32,658 bases of DNA from a virus, in the IMG/VR virus record IMGVR_UViG_3300025013_000005, positions 1-32,658 of that record. One strand, 5' to 3'. The first letter of the stretch is position 1. Each line of letters opens with the position of its first letter. Shown here piece after piece: positions 386 through 5,953 of the stretch. The notes beneath the pieces are model-generated. The model had not been told where the DNA came from and did no database searches. It saw only the letters and a program-made list of their open reading frames with translations. The translations under genes were made by a program, and so were the position numbers.

Positions 386-562
386 TGTGAACCACTAGGA
401 GCTATGGCAGTGAAATGATTATGGGTCGGATTGTGGAAGTGGGGGAAATCTTGAGGAAAACTTGCGCAACAATTGTGCTGCGTGGACAAACAAAAATTTA
501 TGAGTCATTTGGCAGTGGTGGGATGTAAGGCTATTTTTGCACCCGCTTTGGCAGTGTGGTGC
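386..562 (+). repeat. phage left end with three putative transposase-binding sites (L1, L2, L3)
   Basis: TGGCAGTG occurs three times in the same orientation, at 405-412, 510-517 and 549-556, with partly conserved upstream bases (GCTA, CATT, GCTT). The spacings of 105 and 39 bp are close to those recalled for L1-L2-L3 at the Mu left end. A Mu-type end begins with TG; TGTGAACC at 386-393 puts the first core about 19 bases inside, as in Mu. The last site ends just before the stop codon of the first cargo gene. The exact end base and the 5-bp target duplication cannot be confirmed without the right end. Confidence 0.6.
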
Positions 563-564
563 CT

Positions 565-1128
565 TTACTTCATTTTGTTAAGAAGACGTTCTCGCTCCTT
601 AGATTCCCTCGCTCGTTCTTCTATTTGAAATTTAAATCTCTCAACCTCTCCGAATGCCAGCAGCAAACAAATAAAAGAAAAGAAAGCAAAGGTCAAAAAA
701 CAAATGACAGCTATAACAAGTTGGTCTGGTCTAGATAGTACACTGCCTAATAATGGAGAGAAACCAAGCACCACAGCTACAACTATATAGTATATGGTAA
801 GCCAAAAAATATAATTAACATTCCTCTGTATGATCCTATTTAACCTTTGTTGTTCCGACTCAGATAATCCATCTTTGCCGGAAAGCTCAACTATTTTAAG
901 GCGTAAGTTATATGCCACAACCATCATAGCTGGTGGCAAAAATGTAAGCTTTTGGAAAGCATCGAGAACTCTGTCAATATCAAAAAGATACAAAAATTTA
1001 TATGACACCGCAGCTGTGAGCATAACGAGAAAAAGGCCCACACAGGTTTCAATAAGGCTGAAGCCTTTATTTTGTACCTCTATTGATTTCAAGTAATAGT
1101 TCCTAACTGTATCTGGTTTGTAAGCCAT
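565..1128 (-). CDS. RexB-like multi-span inner-membrane protein (lysogenic cargo)
   Basis: This 187-aa protein has three or four hydrophobic segments, at roughly residues 23-47, 62-76, 105-128 and 136-160, followed by a charged, probably helical C-terminal tail rich in E, R and K. It starts inside the end of the upstream 323-aa gene (40-base overlap), so translation is probably coupled; no strong ribosome site precedes the ATG. The DNA is visibly more AT-rich than the phage core. It is the last gene of a leftward unit that begins with the repressor, so it should be made in the lysogen. Position, partner and topology recall lambda RexB, a four-span membrane protein of 144 aa; sequence similarity is not claimed. 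It could be another small channel or exclusion protein. Confidence 0.6.
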   Translation of the reverse strand: MAYKPDTVRNYYLKSIEVQNKGFSLIETCVGLFLVMLTAAVSYKFLYLFDIDRVLDAFQKLTFLPPAMMVVAYNLRLKIVELSGKDGLSESEQQRLNRIIQRNVNYIFWLTIYYIVVAVVLGFSPLLGSVLSRPDQLVIAVICFLTFAFFSFICLLLAFGEVERFKFQIEERARESKERERLLNKMK

Positions 1129-2060
1129 GCCAGCATTTCGTTGTAAAGATCGCTGGAATCTATGATCCCGTTGTAAGTCTTTACCCGAACATGACCAGCA
1201 AATTTTAAATCTGCACCTTTAAGTACAGGGCCATCTTGCAAATGAACCTTGACGTCATCAGGTTCGGCGTGCCTCATTGCAGTAGCGATATTGTCAAGTA
1301 TTTTGTGGGCGGCGTCGGTGGTTTTTCTGTAGTAAGACACCTCTAGGTTTACCCGCAAATTAGCTTCGTCAAGTGAGTCGTCAAGTTTCAGGCCCTTTCG
1401 CCAGTCCGCACCGAGTGCTGCTGTTAAGATATCAAAACCCCTCCCGACTGGCCCAAAAACCATCTTACTAGTTTTTTTACCTTCATCTTGTTCAGAATAT
1501 TTTGTTTCCAAAGATGATCCAATAACAACCTTCTTAACTGGCATTTTTTCTACTCTTTTACGTGCTTCCTTTGTTGGAAGATCGGACAAAAGTATAGCAT
1601 TTCTCTTATCTAAAGTCGAGGTGCAATCTCTAAAAAACCACATTAGATGATTTTCCAAATCCCTGGACTTCAATGATTTAGACTGTAATATCAGTACATG
1701 GTTTTCAAGAACACCGAAATATAGCACTGATTCCAAAAACTCTTGTGTCTTACCATCTTTACTTGGTGGAAGGGACAGAGCTTCTATAGGAAATTCGTCA
1801 GAAGCTTCATCAAGGACAAGAATAGTTGAATCTTTTCCTTCCTCATAACTCAAAAGCTGTCCGAATATCATGCCCCCTTGTAACCTGAAAGAATTTATAA
1901 ATCGTTTGTACTTTGCTTCTGGATCTATATATTCGACCCGTGATATTGGCTTTTTTCTAAGTTCGAGAGCTTTTTCTAAATGCGACTGTAGGTGAGATGA
2001 CTTTTTTTGAAATTGCGCAACCTTGTAGTAAATAGTCTTCGTTTGCGTTACAGGTTTCAT
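1089..2060 (-). CDS. RexA-like soluble protein of unknown function (lysogenic cargo)
   Basis: This 323-aa protein has no signal peptide or membrane span. The ATG at 2060 is preceded by GAGGG at a good distance. Residues around FDILTAALGAD, followed by a basic helical stretch and a beta-rich C-terminus, resemble the recalled arrangement in lambda RexA (GDILKVLGATD, then a similar helix and strand pattern). This is an eye comparison from memory, not an alignment score. The gene is AT-rich, lies downstream of the repressor, and overlaps the following membrane-protein gene, as rexA precedes rexB. If the analogy holds, it would sense an infecting phage or bind DNA and gate the membrane partner. 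A short dyad (ATGTT-gat-AACAT, 2083-2095) lies just upstream and could serve a local promoter. Another prophage defence family is possible. Confidence 0.6.
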   Translation of the reverse strand: MKPVTQTKTIYYKVAQFQKKSSHLQSHLEKALELRKKPISRVEYIDPEAKYKRFINSFRLQGGMIFGQLLSYEEGKDSTILVLDEASDEFPIEALSLPPSKDGKTQEFLESVLYFGVLENHVLILQSKSLKSRDLENHLMWFFRDCTSTLDKRNAILLSDLPTKEARKRVEKMPVKKVVIGSSLETKYSEQDEGKKTSKMVFGPVGRGFDILTAALGADWRKGLKLDDSLDEANLRVNLEVSYYRKTTDAAHKILDNIATAMRHAEPDDVKVHLQDGPVLKGADLKFAGHVRVKTYNGIIDSSDLYNEMLAWLTNQIQLGTIT

Positions 2061-2189
2061 TGTACCCTCTTTGAATTACGTCATGTTGATAACATTTTAG
2101 CACCGACCGGGTGTGCTGCCGATGCCCCAACGGTCACTACAGCTGCTGCCTCTTCACCAATTCAATAAAAACGGATTCTAGGCGTCCCG

Positions 2190-2570
2190 TCATTTTAAAC
2201 TACGTAGGCTTTGCTTACACGCTTTCATGTTGTCCAAGTAGTCCCCCAGCTTGTTTTCCAGGAGCTGGTGGCCCAACTGATCTGGGGTCAGAAAGTACTG
2301 CCGCTGACCGGACCATAATGAACGAGCTGAATCCGAGGCAAACGAGCAGGCATCGGCATCTACAAAAATGGCCCGTCTCTTCTTGTCCAGGGCGGCATAC
2401 CACTTGTTGTGCTTTCTGATGGCGTCCGGCCCGCCTTCAAGCATCCTAGAATTGGCCTTTACGGCGGCTTCTACCTCTTTGACGAATGCCGTGGCTTCCT
2501 TCCTTGTCGGAGCTGCAACAGCCACCGTCACCCAGGAGAGCACAACCAGGACCAGGCAGAGCACCCGCAT
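2190..2570 (-). CDS. small secreted (periplasmic) protein translationally coupled to the repressor
   Basis: This 126-aa protein has a clear signal peptide: MR, then a hydrophobic core of about 15 residues, then AVA-AP as a likely signal peptidase I site near residue 19-20. The mature part is helical and charged, with two cysteines about 45 residues apart that could form a disulfide. The ATG at 2570 shares its A with the TGA stop of the repressor (TGATG), and GGGAGGA lies just upstream, so this start is preferred over an in-frame GTG at 2588. Co-translation with the repressor implies expression in the lysogen. A role in surface or periplasmic superinfection exclusion is inferred from position only; the family is not recognised. 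Confidence 0.7.
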   Translation of the reverse strand: MRVLCLVLVVLSWVTVAVAAPTRKEATAFVKEVEAAVKANSRMLEGGPDAIRKHNKWYAALDKKRRAIFVDADACSFASDSARSLWSGQRQYFLTPDQLGHQLLENKLGDYLDNMKACKQSLRSLK

Positions 2571-3280
2571 CACATCTTCCTCCCGCACCAGACCACCCGG
2601 CCGATCACGTTAAGCATGGCAGCTGCTTCGCCCTGGAGGACCTCCGCGTCATAGATCGGATTATCACCTTTCACTATTACCGTGCCATCAAGCCTTCGCT
2701 GAATCCGCTTGACCAACAGCCCCCCATTCAGCTGCAAAACATAGATGGCATTCTCCTGGATCTTTCGCTCGCGAAGGTCGACCAGGATCATATCGTCGCT
2801 GGACAATGTCGGCTCCATCGAGTCGCCTTTAACGTTGATCAGAGCCAGATCCTTGGCCGATAGCCCCATCACGTCCTTTATCCATCCCGCCTTAAACGAC
2901 AGGTAATCAACTATTTGCTCACTATGTACAGTCGTTGCGCCACCGGCCCCTGCAGAGACGTTGTACCTGGGCACCATCACAAAATCTGCCTGACGCTTAG
3001 CAACATACTCGATTTGCTCCTGACGCTCCGCGACAAGGTTAACACCAGGCGAGGTGTCTACGACATTGCCCCGCATCATCTCACCTTCCCCCGTCATTAA
3101 CCAATCCGTGCTGCAATTGTAATGCTGGGCGATCTTAAAGGCCCATTCAAGCGGCATTACACCGCGCGACTTAGCGCCAGAAACGCTAGCCGCCGTGACT
3201 TGCAAAAATGCACTGAACCGGTTGAACGACTTCCAGCCAGTCACCTGCATGATCCTGGTCCACACCTCTACAAAATCCAT
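2570..3280 (-). CDS. CI-like phage repressor with S24 (LexA-type) self-cleavage domain
   Basis: This 236-aa repressor keeps lytic genes off. Residues 1-65 form the N-terminal helix-turn-helix domain of the bacteriophage CI repressor family, and residues about 95-236 form an S24 peptidase domain. The catalytic pair is visible as Ser154 in GDSMEP and Lys191 in LLVKRIQ, and an Ala-Gly cleavage site lies in the AGAGG stretch near residues 110-114. The family is cleaved after RecA activation, so SOS induction of this prophage is expected. This differs from Mu's own repressor, which lacks this domain. AGGG precedes the ATG by about eight bases. It reads away from the early genes, with operator repeats directly upstream. 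Confidence 0.93.
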   Translation of the reverse strand: MDFVEVWTRIMQVTGWKSFNRFSAFLQVTAASVSGAKSRGVMPLEWAFKIAQHYNCSTDWLMTGEGEMMRGNVVDTSPGVNLVAERQEQIEYVAKRQADFVMVPRYNVSAGAGGATTVHSEQIVDYLSFKAGWIKDVMGLSAKDLALINVKGDSMEPTLSSDDMILVDLRERKIQENAIYVLQLNGGLLVKRIQRRLDGTVIVKGDNPIYDAEVLQGEAAAMLNVIGRVVWCGRKM

Positions 3281-3290
3281 GTCAATCCCT

Positions 3291-3422
3291 GTTCGGAGTT
3301 CTGGGGCTTAACTCCGAACTAAACTCCGAACAAGCGAAGTTAGTTCGGAGTTGATTAAATGCCTGAAAATAGGTCTAGTTTGCTGAGCGATCCTGTATTG
3401 CCTAGAAAAGTTAACTCCGAAC
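3291..3422. promoter_or_regulatory. five-copy operator array, AACTCCGAAC
   Basis: The decamer AACTCCGAAC occurs on the plus strand at 3310-3319, 3322-3331 and 3413-3422, and as its complement GTTCGGAGTT at 3291-3300 and 3343-3352. Each lies in an imperfect dyad centred on TCCGA (TTAxxTCxGAxxTAA in the best copy). The array covers the region between the divergent repressor and early genes, so these are the probable repressor operators. The first copy sits against the repressor start, which suggests autoregulation. Confidence 0.8.
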
Positions 3423-3434
3423 TCATTTTATTAG

Positions 3435-3463
3435 TTGACAGCTAACAAAAGTTAGCTTAAAAC
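3435..3463 (+). promoter_or_regulatory. early (lytic) promoter candidate
   Basis: A perfect -35 box TTGACA lies at 3435-3440, then a 17-bp spacer and TAAAAC as a modest -10 at 3458-3463. It points toward the Ner and transposase genes and starts 13 bp after the last operator decamer. The predicted transcript would begin at about 3469-3470. Confidence 0.6.
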
Positions 3464-3478
3464 TTATTGTCATGACAA
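3440..3478. promoter_or_regulatory. two perfect dyads over the early promoter
   Basis: AGCTAAC-AAAA-GTTAGCT (3440-3457) fills the promoter spacer, and the 12-bp palindrome TTGTCATGACAA (3467-3478) covers the predicted transcription start. They differ in sequence from the repressor decamers, so a second regulator, most simply the Ner-like protein encoded next, may bind them. Confidence 0.5.
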
Positions 3479-3700
3479 GACAACTAAATACCAAAAAAAC
3501 CCGCCGAGCGCAGGGTCTGGATCAAAGGTCAATTAGAGGTCATTGGCGAATCTTTCGCGTCCATTGGTCGCGAGCTGGGAACCAGTCGGCAAGCGGTGCG
3601 CAGTGCTCTCGATTCGCCCTATCCAAGGATGGAAAAAGCCATCGCTGAAAAGCTCGGGGTGCCCAGAGAAAAGATCTGGCCAGAGCGATACGCGGCTTAA
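3472..3700 (+). CDS. ner: Ner/Nlp-like DNA-binding regulator, frame interrupted at an A7 run
   Basis: The frame ending with TAA at 3698-3700 encodes a typical Ner-type domain: a Trp near the N-terminus, SIGRELGTSRQAVRSAL as the helix-turn-helix, then LGVPREKIWPERY matching the family's IWPSRY ending. In phage Mu, Ner represses early transcription and promotes lytic growth. That frame is open only from 3488 and has no ATG, GTG or TTG before the domain. An ATG at 3472 in the neighbouring frame would join it after loss of one A, or +1 slippage, in AAAAAAA at 3493-3499, giving about 75 aa, the right length. No ribosome site precedes 3472, and the predicted transcript start is 2-3 bases upstream, so the message could be nearly leaderless. 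A sequencing error is the main alternative. Confidence 0.65.
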
Positions 3701-3796
3701 CTATCGACTAATGAATAGTTATGGAGATGCGAATAGTAACCCATTTTTAATGCTCCTGCAATTGGAATATAGCCGCAACACTAGGAAGGCAATCAC

Positions 3797-5953
3797 ATGG
3801 TCGAATCAGAGCTGAAAACGCATTATACCGCGAAGGATCTTGCCGGTTTACCGGCAATGCCGTCTACAGAGCGCGGCGTTCAAAAGCTTGCCGACCGTGA
3901 AGGCTGGCCCAACCGCAAGCGCGCCGGCCGTGGTGGTGGCAAAGAGTATGCTCTGGACTCCCTCCCCCCGGAAACCCGCGACCACCTGGCCAACCAGACC
4001 ATCGCTCAACTGACCGAGAAAGTATGTCCCTTTCCTATGACTCCCCGGCAAGAGACCACACCCGCCGTCATCGAAAAGCCTGACTATTCAGAGATCGCTG
4101 CCATGAAGAAATGGCAGACCTCAACCATGGACGCCCGCCTGGTCATAATACGACTTATCGAGCAGGCCGCCCCGTCGATCGGCGCCACCAAGGCCATCAG
4201 GATCCTGGTCAAGCAAGCTGCAGACGGTGTGCTCCCCCCCGAGATTCAGGCCCTGGTGCCGATCGCCAACAAGCGCGCCGGCGACAGTGGCGATCGCACC
4301 TTATCCGAGCGCTCATTGATGCGCTGGTGGAGCGATTACAAGAAGACCGGCGGCAACTATTCCGCCCTGGCGCCGGTGGCCGTAGAGAAGGCCGAGCTGC
4401 CGCCCTGGGCGCCCTACTTCCTTAAGTGCTACCGCGTACCGCAGAAGATATCGGTCGCCCATGCGATCGAGGATCTGGCTGCCATCCTCCCCGCCGGGAT
4501 CGCGCTACCTTCCGAGGCGCAGGCCTATCGTCTCCTCGGGAAAATGAGCAAGCTGGATGTGCAGCGCGGCCGCATGACAGGCAAGGAACTGCGCAGCCAG
4601 AAAGGCTTTATCCGCCGCTCCACCGACGAATTCCAGCCGCTCGACATCTGCATCCCGGACGGACACTCCTGGAAGGGTTACATCGCCCACCCGGTGCACG
4701 GCCGCCACTTCAAGCCCGAGGTCTGCGCCATCATCGACGCCGTCACCAAGGTGATCATCGGTTGGAGCGCAGGGCTCGCCGAGTCATCCCAGACCGTTGC
4801 CGACGCCGTCCGCCATGCGGTCACCGTCAACGACGAGAAGCGCTACGGTGGCATCCCCGCCATCTTGTACGCCGACTGCGGGGCCGGCAACGAGGCCACC
4901 GTCAACAGCGACCCCTTCTGCGGCATGTATGCCCGGCTCGGCATGTCCTACAAGACGGGCATCCCCGGCAACTCCCAGGCGCGCGGTCTTATCGAGCGCG
5001 CCCAGAAGACCGTCTGGATTCGCGCCGCCAAGAAGCTACCCACCTACACCGGCCCCGGGATGGACTCATCAGTCCAGCGCAAGATGTACCTCGCCCTGGA
5101 GAAGGATGTGAAGGCCGCAGTAAAGGCGGGCACCCCCGGCAAGAAGTCGGAGAAGCTTCTCTCCTGGCAGGAGTTCCTGGATTTTTGCCAAAACGAGATC
5201 GAGGACTACAACCGCCGCCCGCATAGCTCGCTCCCCCGGATCACCGACAAGGAGACCGGCCTGCGCCGCCACATGTGCCCCCTGGAAATGTGGAGCAAGT
5301 TTCTCGCCGAAGGCTGGACTCCTGAAGTACCCGAGCCCGCCGAGCTGGACGCACTGTTCCGCCCGCACGTCACCGTCACCACCCGGCGCGGAGAGGTTCG
5401 AGTCTTCGGCAACCTCTACTACTCCGGGGATCTGGTGCACTACAACGGCGAGACCGTCATCGTCGCCTACGACATCCACGATGCCAACCAGGTATGGGTA
5501 AAAGACCAGGAAGAACGCCTGATCTGCATCGCCCGCTGGAACGCCAACAAGAAGGCATTCTACCCGGTACCAGTGGTCGAGCAGGCCCGCGAGGACCGCA
5601 AGAACCGCCGCCGGAAGCTGCTGCTCGGCCACCTGGAAGAAGTCGAGGCTGAAGCCGCGGTTTCCGTCGAACTGGTAGCCACCCGCGAGCTCCCCCCCGA
5701 GGTCATCGCTTTCGAGCAAAGGCAGGAAGAAAAAGTGAAACAGAAAGAGATAGGCCAGACCTTTTTTGACAACATCGCCGACCTTTCCGACGACATCCGC
5801 CGCCGTCAGAAACGTGGCGAAGCCAGCGCATACGAGACCACCTGGGCGGAGGATTACGACCGGTCCCTGGGCAGCGGTAAGCGCCTCGGCCTCTACAAGA
5901 CAGACCCCAACTGCGCGGGACGATTCGCGGCGCAGGCAGCACAGCACCAATAA
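3797..5953 (+). CDS. A: MuA-like DDE transposase
   Basis: This 718-aa transposase catalyses strand transfer for integration and replicative transposition. Residues 1-70 look like the Mu-type N-terminal winged-helix DNA-binding domain (YTAKDLAGLPAMPSTERGVQ). The integrase-fold core begins near residue 280. The probable DDE triad is Asp288 in CIPDGHS, Asp360 in ILYADCG and Glu400 in GLIERAQK, followed by the family's C-terminal beta-barrel and a charged tail that should contact protein B. Mu A is 663 aa, so the size fits. AGGAAGG precedes the ATG at 3797. It is the first large early gene and is followed by a hairpin terminator and the B gene. Confidence 0.96.
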   Translation: MVESELKTHYTAKDLAGLPAMPSTERGVQKLADREGWPNRKRAGRGGGKEYALDSLPPETRDHLANQTIAQLTEKVCPFPMTPRQETTPAVIEKPDYSEIAAMKKWQTSTMDARLVIIRLIEQAAPSIGATKAIRILVKQAADGVLPPEIQALVPIANKRAGDSGDRTLSERSLMRWWSDYKKTGGNYSALAPVAVEKAELPPWAPYFLKCYRVPQKISVAHAIEDLAAILPAGIALPSEAQAYRLLGKMSKLDVQRGRMTGKELRSQKGFIRRSTDEFQPLDICIPDGHSWKGYIAHPVHGRHFKPEVCAIIDAVTKVIIGWSAGLAESSQTVADAVRHAVTVNDEKRYGGIPAILYADCGAGNEATVNSDPFCGMYARLGMSYKTGIPGNSQARGLIERAQKTVWIRAAKKLPTYTGPGMDSSVQRKMYLALEKDVKAAVKAGTPGKKSEKLLSWQEFLDFCQNEIEDYNRRPHSSLPRITDKETGLRRHMCPLEMWSKFLAEGWTPEVPEPAELDALFRPHVTVTTRRGEVRVFGNLYYSGDLVHYNGETVIVAYDIHDANQVWVKDQEERLICIARWNANKKAFYPVPVVEQAREDRKNRRRKLLLGHLEEVEAEAAVSVELVATRELPPEVIAFEQRQEEKVKQKEIGQTFFDNIADLSDDIRRRQKRGEASAYETTWAEDYDRSLGSGKRLGLYKTDPNCAGRFAAQAAQHQ

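Follow-up and report, generated by a model that had tools for sequence, protein, structure and literature searches.

Background

Among the known systems closest to the locus reported here is the cI-rexA-rexB operon of phage lambda, in which RexA binds DNA and acts as the sensor, with RexB as the effector in the membrane (PMC11077077, PMC12894663). Five RexAB-like systems have been described so far (PMC12894663). For RexABpp of the Pseudomonas putida prophage P1 (PP_5643/PP_5644; Sci Rep, January 2026), defense needs both genes, and overexpression of RexApp leads to RexBpp-dependent growth arrest and membrane damage (PMC12894663).

Here, we analyze a stretch of viral DNA (IMG/VR record IMGVR_UViG_3300025013_000005, positions 1 to 32,658), which at its full length of 32,658 nucleotides we call the window. 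It carries a 323-aa soluble protein and a 187-aa membrane protein encoded side by side. We think it likely that this pair represents a divergent RexAB-type module for abortive infection, one that a Mu-like phage has as cargo behind its repressor. We favor this reading because the predicted fold of the soluble protein has RexA as its only significant match, the pairing is obligate, the pair recurs behind CI, it belongs to low-GC variable cargo, and RexABpp provides a precedent.

Locus Layout in a Mu-Like Phage

The phage is Mu-like: besides a MuA-type transposase gene (3797..5953, plus strand; PF09299 1.5e-17, PF02316 3e-17), it encodes a terminase, a portal, a head protease, a major head protein, and a contractile tail sheath, and it has relatives whose MuA proteins are 53-70% identical. 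The contig ends inside the tail genes and the right end is missing, so we speak of a phage rather than a prophage. Comparison of the contig ends gave no convincing inverted repeat and the left end of the phage was not located; we infer that the pair lies between that left end and the repressor.

Divergent from the transposase gene, and all on the minus strand, are four genes. The first, cI (2570..3280), encodes a 236-aa S24/CI-type repressor (S24 peptidase PF00717 1e-18; CI helix-turn-helix PF07022 2e-8) and heads a presumed lysogenic operon. Behind it come a gene for a small exported protein (2190..2570; 126 aa, with an N-terminal signal peptide by eye), the rexA-like gene (1089..2060; 323 aa, predicted RexA fold), proposed to encode a DNA-binding sensor and trigger, and the rexB-like gene (565..1128; 187 aa), which overlaps the preceding gene by 40 nt and is proposed to encode the membrane effector. 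An AGAGGG ribosome site lies upstream of the rexA-like gene. A promoter and terminator scan of the window gave results at chance level, and this includes a promoter-like site before the rexA-like gene.

The original prediction, made from the letters of the sequence, had read this layout leftward from an S24 repressor, and its overlaps and sizes are borne out by the exact coordinates and open reading frames. It had also called the two distal genes AT-rich relative to the phage core, which is correct: GC content is 36.7% in the rexB-like and 39.8% in the rexA-like gene versus 61-62% in MuA, MuB, and the remaining core, with the exported-protein gene at 54.9% and cI at 53.7%.

The stretch that separates cI from the rightward early genes contains AACTCCGAAC five times, each copy exact, in both orientations (3291..3422). 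Allowing up to one mismatch adds no further copy in the window, and five copies were reached in 1 of 100 shuffles; as far as sequence can tell, this is a probable repressor operator array. When viral contigs were searched with the window repressor's own peptides, no relatives of this exact repressor were found.

To the right of the array, a ner-like frame (about 3472-3700, plus strand) ends in ...KIWPERYAA and has no in-frame start. The likely ner ATG, at 3472, belongs to a different frame, and seven A in a row (around 3492-3498) lie in between. The gene seems frameshifted, be it through sequencing error, slippage, or a true break; an intact ner-like relative is found at 3193-3528 of L126, a related Mu-like contig (we use our own L numbers for contigs and loci).

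The Soluble Protein: Sequence and Predicted Fold

Sequence by itself ties the soluble protein to lambda RexA in no way. Its family is PHROG 3482 (full-length match, 1.4e-81), annotated there as of unknown function, and it shares 34-37% identity over the whole protein with homologues in Escherichia coli phage Perceval, Acinetobacter phages, and Shigella phage SfIV. Pfam, NCBIfam, and PADLOC gave no match above cut-off, with PF15969 and the PADLOC RexA profile both absent, and since the protein matches PHROG 3482 and not the PF15969 profile, it is not filed in PF15969. As positive controls, lambda RexA was matched at 1e-97 (Pfam) and 9e-110 (PADLOC), and lambda RexB was also matched. Aligning the family (5, 36, and 42 sequences) with lambda RexA by hhalign gave no signal, nor did a custom alignment of profiles, run domain by domain and with shuffles, to five RexA sequences, and a PDB sequence search with a profile of the PHROG 3482 family matched nothing. 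The profile check against RexA and RexB proposed at the outset thus produced no link through Pfam, PADLOC, or hhalign. The motif DIL-x-x-LGAD, first pointed out as shared with RexA, had to be dropped as evidence: it is off by one (DIL-TAA-LGAD in the window, DIL-KV-LGA-T in lambda) and is not conserved in the family. The "DIL" helix likeness coincides with the first helix of the dimerization domain in the model described below, which is consistent with the fold and carries no statistical weight.

The predicted structure provides the link. An AlphaFold2 model built with 36 homologues (pLDDT 76.7, pTM 0.75) was compared by Foldseek with 350,542 PDB chains, and only 8TWQ, the lambda RexA structure, fell below an E value of 0.001: chains B and A were found at 5e-5 and 2.5e-4, each with probability 1.00, and the next PDB match stood at 0.1. 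This comparison had been set beforehand as one that could refute the RexA reading, and it returned lambda RexA as the only significant match. The Foldseek alignment spans nearly the full length of the model. Global TM-scores against 8TWQ are low (0.28-0.33) and the rmsd is high. The crystal shows RexA closed, and its authors expect the domains to rearrange strongly (PMC11077077); a difference between open and closed states about a hinge is a likely candidate for the cause of the low scores.

The order of secondary structure supports the match. Published RexA has a beta-rich N-terminal domain, a beta-alpha-alpha-beta-alpha-beta-beta arrangement, and one long C-terminal helix (PMC11077077). By DSSP, our model shows after residue 200 a strand, two helices, a strand, a helix, two to three strands, and a long C-terminal helix, in agreement with the published dimerization domain and C-terminal helix. 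A fold search of BFVD found five unnamed phage proteins of similar fold and no entry named RexA. Judged on the whole-chain match, the modeled protein belongs to the RexA fold superfamily, with its split globular domain and dimerization domain.

The Membrane Partner

The 187-aa protein had been credited with about four membrane spans, and its AlphaFold2 model (32 homologues, pLDDT 89.3) indeed consists of four long helices, at residues 25-46, 51-83, 90-122, and 134-186. The last of these reaches in the model well past the membrane and has a charged end. Across the 32 homologues E92, R95, and R172 alone are near-invariant, and they sit in charged, probably cytoplasmic parts of the protein.

By sequence, the protein matches phrog_4510 (1.7e-8) and phrog_16807 (4e-8), which are also the partner families in the Acinetobacter phages and in phage Perceval. 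Neither PF15968 nor the PADLOC RexB profile is matched, and hhalign against RexB gave nothing. No profile of Pfam, NCBIfam, or PADLOC scored above cut-off, and a weak hit to DUF3169 (0.0018) was ignored because it fell below it. Foldseek of the model against the PDB gave nothing significant, and we did not find a solved RexB structure with which to compare it. What identifies the protein as RexB-like is its position, topology, and pairing, and these only: it is a small four-span protein encoded directly after the rexA-like gene.

Two alternatives concern what the two proteins do. One is a pair with reversed roles, as in mycobacteriophage Butters, in which the soluble protein would be the toxin, held inactive at the membrane by its partner. 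Such an arrangement is documented for Butters gp30/gp31 (PMC12894663), and overlapping genes fit a tight stoichiometry; we nevertheless consider it decidedly unlikely, as in RexABpp, the tested Gram-negative system, the membrane protein is the effector (PMC12894663), and Pfam and other profile searches of the soluble protein turned up no toxin domain. The other is that the pair decayed to cargo without function. The window is a single contig with an apparently frameshifted Mu-like ner gene nearby, but both frames of the pair are intact, the invariant residues of the family are kept, and the ribosome site and the overlap are present, so that we give this idea practically no credence.

Pairing and Position Across Homologues

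Loci were retrieved with the soluble protein and grouped at 80% identity into 42 clusters, 3 of them fragments and 39 intact. In every intact cluster (39/39), a multi-span membrane gene of about 160-200 aa lies directly downstream of the rexA-like gene; 38 of these partners were scored by script, and the one in L008, of 185 aa, was missed through start-codon choice and seen on inspection. Because retrieval used the soluble protein, the partner could not skew this rate. PHROG 3482 is represented in Escherichia, Shigella, Klebsiella, Acinetobacter, Pseudomonas, Marinobacter, and other phages and hosts. Of the matches in the plasmid collection, most were Acinetobacter records, and one was a Klebsiella phage-plasmid. 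In L122 (A. baumannii ATCC 17978 plasmid pAB1, 4001-4994), the rexA-like gene is in pieces and the downstream membrane gene is annotated as intact.

The position of the pair varies. A CI-like repressor gene lies upstream, on the same strand and within 2.6 kb, in 17 of the 39 intact clusters, and in phage Perceval and the Acinetobacter phages the pair is directly or near-directly behind CI. In SfIV and the Klebsiella phage-plasmid pKPTCM2-4, it is found between Q and the lysis genes (holin), and in the Mu-like L019 (53% identity) and L069 it sits within the head operon, beside the gene for the head protease. The original prediction of a gene order like that of cI-rexA-rexB stands in the form of a conserved two-gene unit that is often in the rexAB position behind CI. 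Recurrence of the pair at different sites indicates that the module moves as a unit, and since several homologues are located elsewhere, coexpression with CI is no general rule.

These observations bear on a further reading, that the pair chiefly tunes the phage's own lysis/lysogeny switch, with the RexA-like protein binding the operator region and exclusion being a side effect, a role that has been proposed for lambda RexA. A protein of predicted RexA fold is encoded beside a repressor and a five-copy operator array, and in lambda, RexA can bias the switch without RexB and shows non-specific DNA binding (PMC11077077). However, every intact homologue keeps the membrane partner, for which a pure switch would have no use, and many copies are far from a repressor. 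We regard this reading as unlikely.

It is more improbable still that the pair is some other two-gene defense or toxin-antitoxin system that resembles RexAB in layout only, for example Kiwa (membrane KwaA plus soluble KwaB). A soluble protein of about 320 aa with a small membrane protein is a frequent defense layout, and the Mu-like L069 has a pair of this kind composed of a DUF4747 protein and a membrane protein. However, no Pfam or PADLOC match points to any other system (for Kiwa, the pair matched neither the KwaB domain DUF4868 nor the PADLOC profile), and the fold search was specific for RexA.

The Cargo Site and the Exported Protein

Four relatives were found by MuA, three of which (L124, L126, and L127) include the region to the left of MuA. 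All three keep CI, at 38-48% identity to that of the window, and in none of them was the Rex pair detected. In L124, the genes behind CI (453-2736, minus strand) encode an HSDR_N protein (PF04313 2.4e-12) together with a membrane-anchored protein of 316 aa that has no family; in L127, a small lipoprotein is accompanied by a Bro-N protein, and L126 has a small lipoprotein. The position behind CI in Mu-like phages is a variable cargo site. That Mu-like relatives keep CI and hold other genes here agrees with the earlier proposal that the two distal genes of the window are imported cargo.

The L069 contig holds, at 2805-4309 (minus strand), a gene for the DUF4747 protein (PF15931 9e-56) and one for a 210-aa membrane protein, a candidate second defense pair in that Mu-like phage.

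The most likely start of the exported protein between cI and the rexA-like gene is an ATG at 2570 that shares the sequence TGATG with the CI stop and is thereby translationally coupled to it; the open reading frame list gives it as 132 aa from an upstream GTG. Pfam, PHROG, PADLOC, and further profile searches found no convincing family match. Other small exported or lipoprotein genes are located at or near the 3' side of CI in L126 (1924-2379), L127 (1683-2024), L069 (755-1234), and L145 (4259-4588), and the proteins behind CI in these phages share no detectable family.

L145 is from a distant Pseudomonas branch of the pair (L119 and L143-L150, phage contigs of about 52-64 kb; phrog_3482 3.4e-39 for L119), and its gene order is cI, lipoprotein, rexA-like, rexB-like. 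That the window's order of cI, exported protein, rexA-like, and rexB-like genes recurs in so distant a branch would fit a system of three components, in which the exported protein would participate, perhaps by regulating a RexB-like pore from the periplasm or by plugging it. We consider this very unlikely. The exported protein as an extra Rex component finds no support: L126 and L127 also have an exported protein behind CI, and no Rex pair was detected in them. Defense by RexABpp against the phages tested does not require the two genes that separate it from CI in the P. putida prophage P1 (PMC12894663). On the simplest reading, the exported protein comes from an independent lysogenic-conversion gene and is probably cargo of its own.

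How the Pair May Act

A RexAB-type module in this place would probably serve as a suicide-type defense against other phages, by analogy with the described systems. In the lysogen, the cI transcript would extend across the exported-protein gene and take in rexA and rexB. The RexA-fold protein may dimerize and bind DNA non-specifically, as its predicted fold and the biochemistry of lambda RexA and RexApp suggest. Replication or recombination intermediates of another phage, or a specific trigger protein, could then switch the state of RexA, and the switched form would activate the four-helix membrane partner. This partner might form a pore or depolarize the inner membrane in some other way, with the result that growth stops and the infection is aborted.

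Comparison with Known Systems

To the best of our search of the open-access literature, no RexAB has been reported in a Mu-like phage, and the setting claimed as new from the start does appear to be so. On our best reading, Mu-like phages have a RexAB-type module at two sites, one following the repressor gene and the other within the head operon. The match in fold, together with a partner that is always present, further indicates that PHROG 3482 is a large RexA-like lineage missed by the Pfam and PADLOC profiles. If PHROG 3482 is RexA-like, it offers many natural variants with which to probe the trigger of Rex exclusion, a question since the 1950s.

Among named systems, lambda cI-rexA-rexB (8TWQ; PF15969/PF15968) is like the window in predicted RexA fold and in the order of cI, a soluble gene, and a multi-span membrane gene on one strand. 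It differs in having no detectable sequence similarity, in size (279 and 144 aa in lambda versus 323 and 187 aa here), in the exported protein that the window has between cI and the rexA-like gene, and in the Mu-like nature of the window's phage. The RexA fold, as modeled here, is common to the pair and RexAB, yet by sequence the pair does not belong to PF15969/PF15968.

RexABpp is likened to the pair by its published description, which gives similar size classes, a four-helix partner, a RexA-like fold, and a place behind CI with intervening genes. A search of 399 Pseudomonas genomes directed at PP_5643/PP_5644 found the distant branch mentioned above and not those proteins. The published positions of residues mutated in the RexABpp membrane protein served as a fingerprint in this search; 3 of 7 were matched, no better than background.

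Actinophages Sbash (gp30/gp31), CarolAnn (gp44/gp43), and Butters (gp30/gp31) also have a soluble RexA-like protein with a membrane partner in prophages, a likeness taken from their published description; their hosts are actinobacterial and the roles in Butters are reversed (PMC12894663). Relatives by sequence are the PHROG 3482 and phrog_4510/phrog_16807 pairs of phage Perceval, the Acinetobacter phages Ab105, Ab1656-2, and phi1_092021, and Shigella phage SfIV, which are of the same family and have the same two-gene arrangement. These carriers are lambdoid and other phages, whereas the phage of the window is Mu-like.
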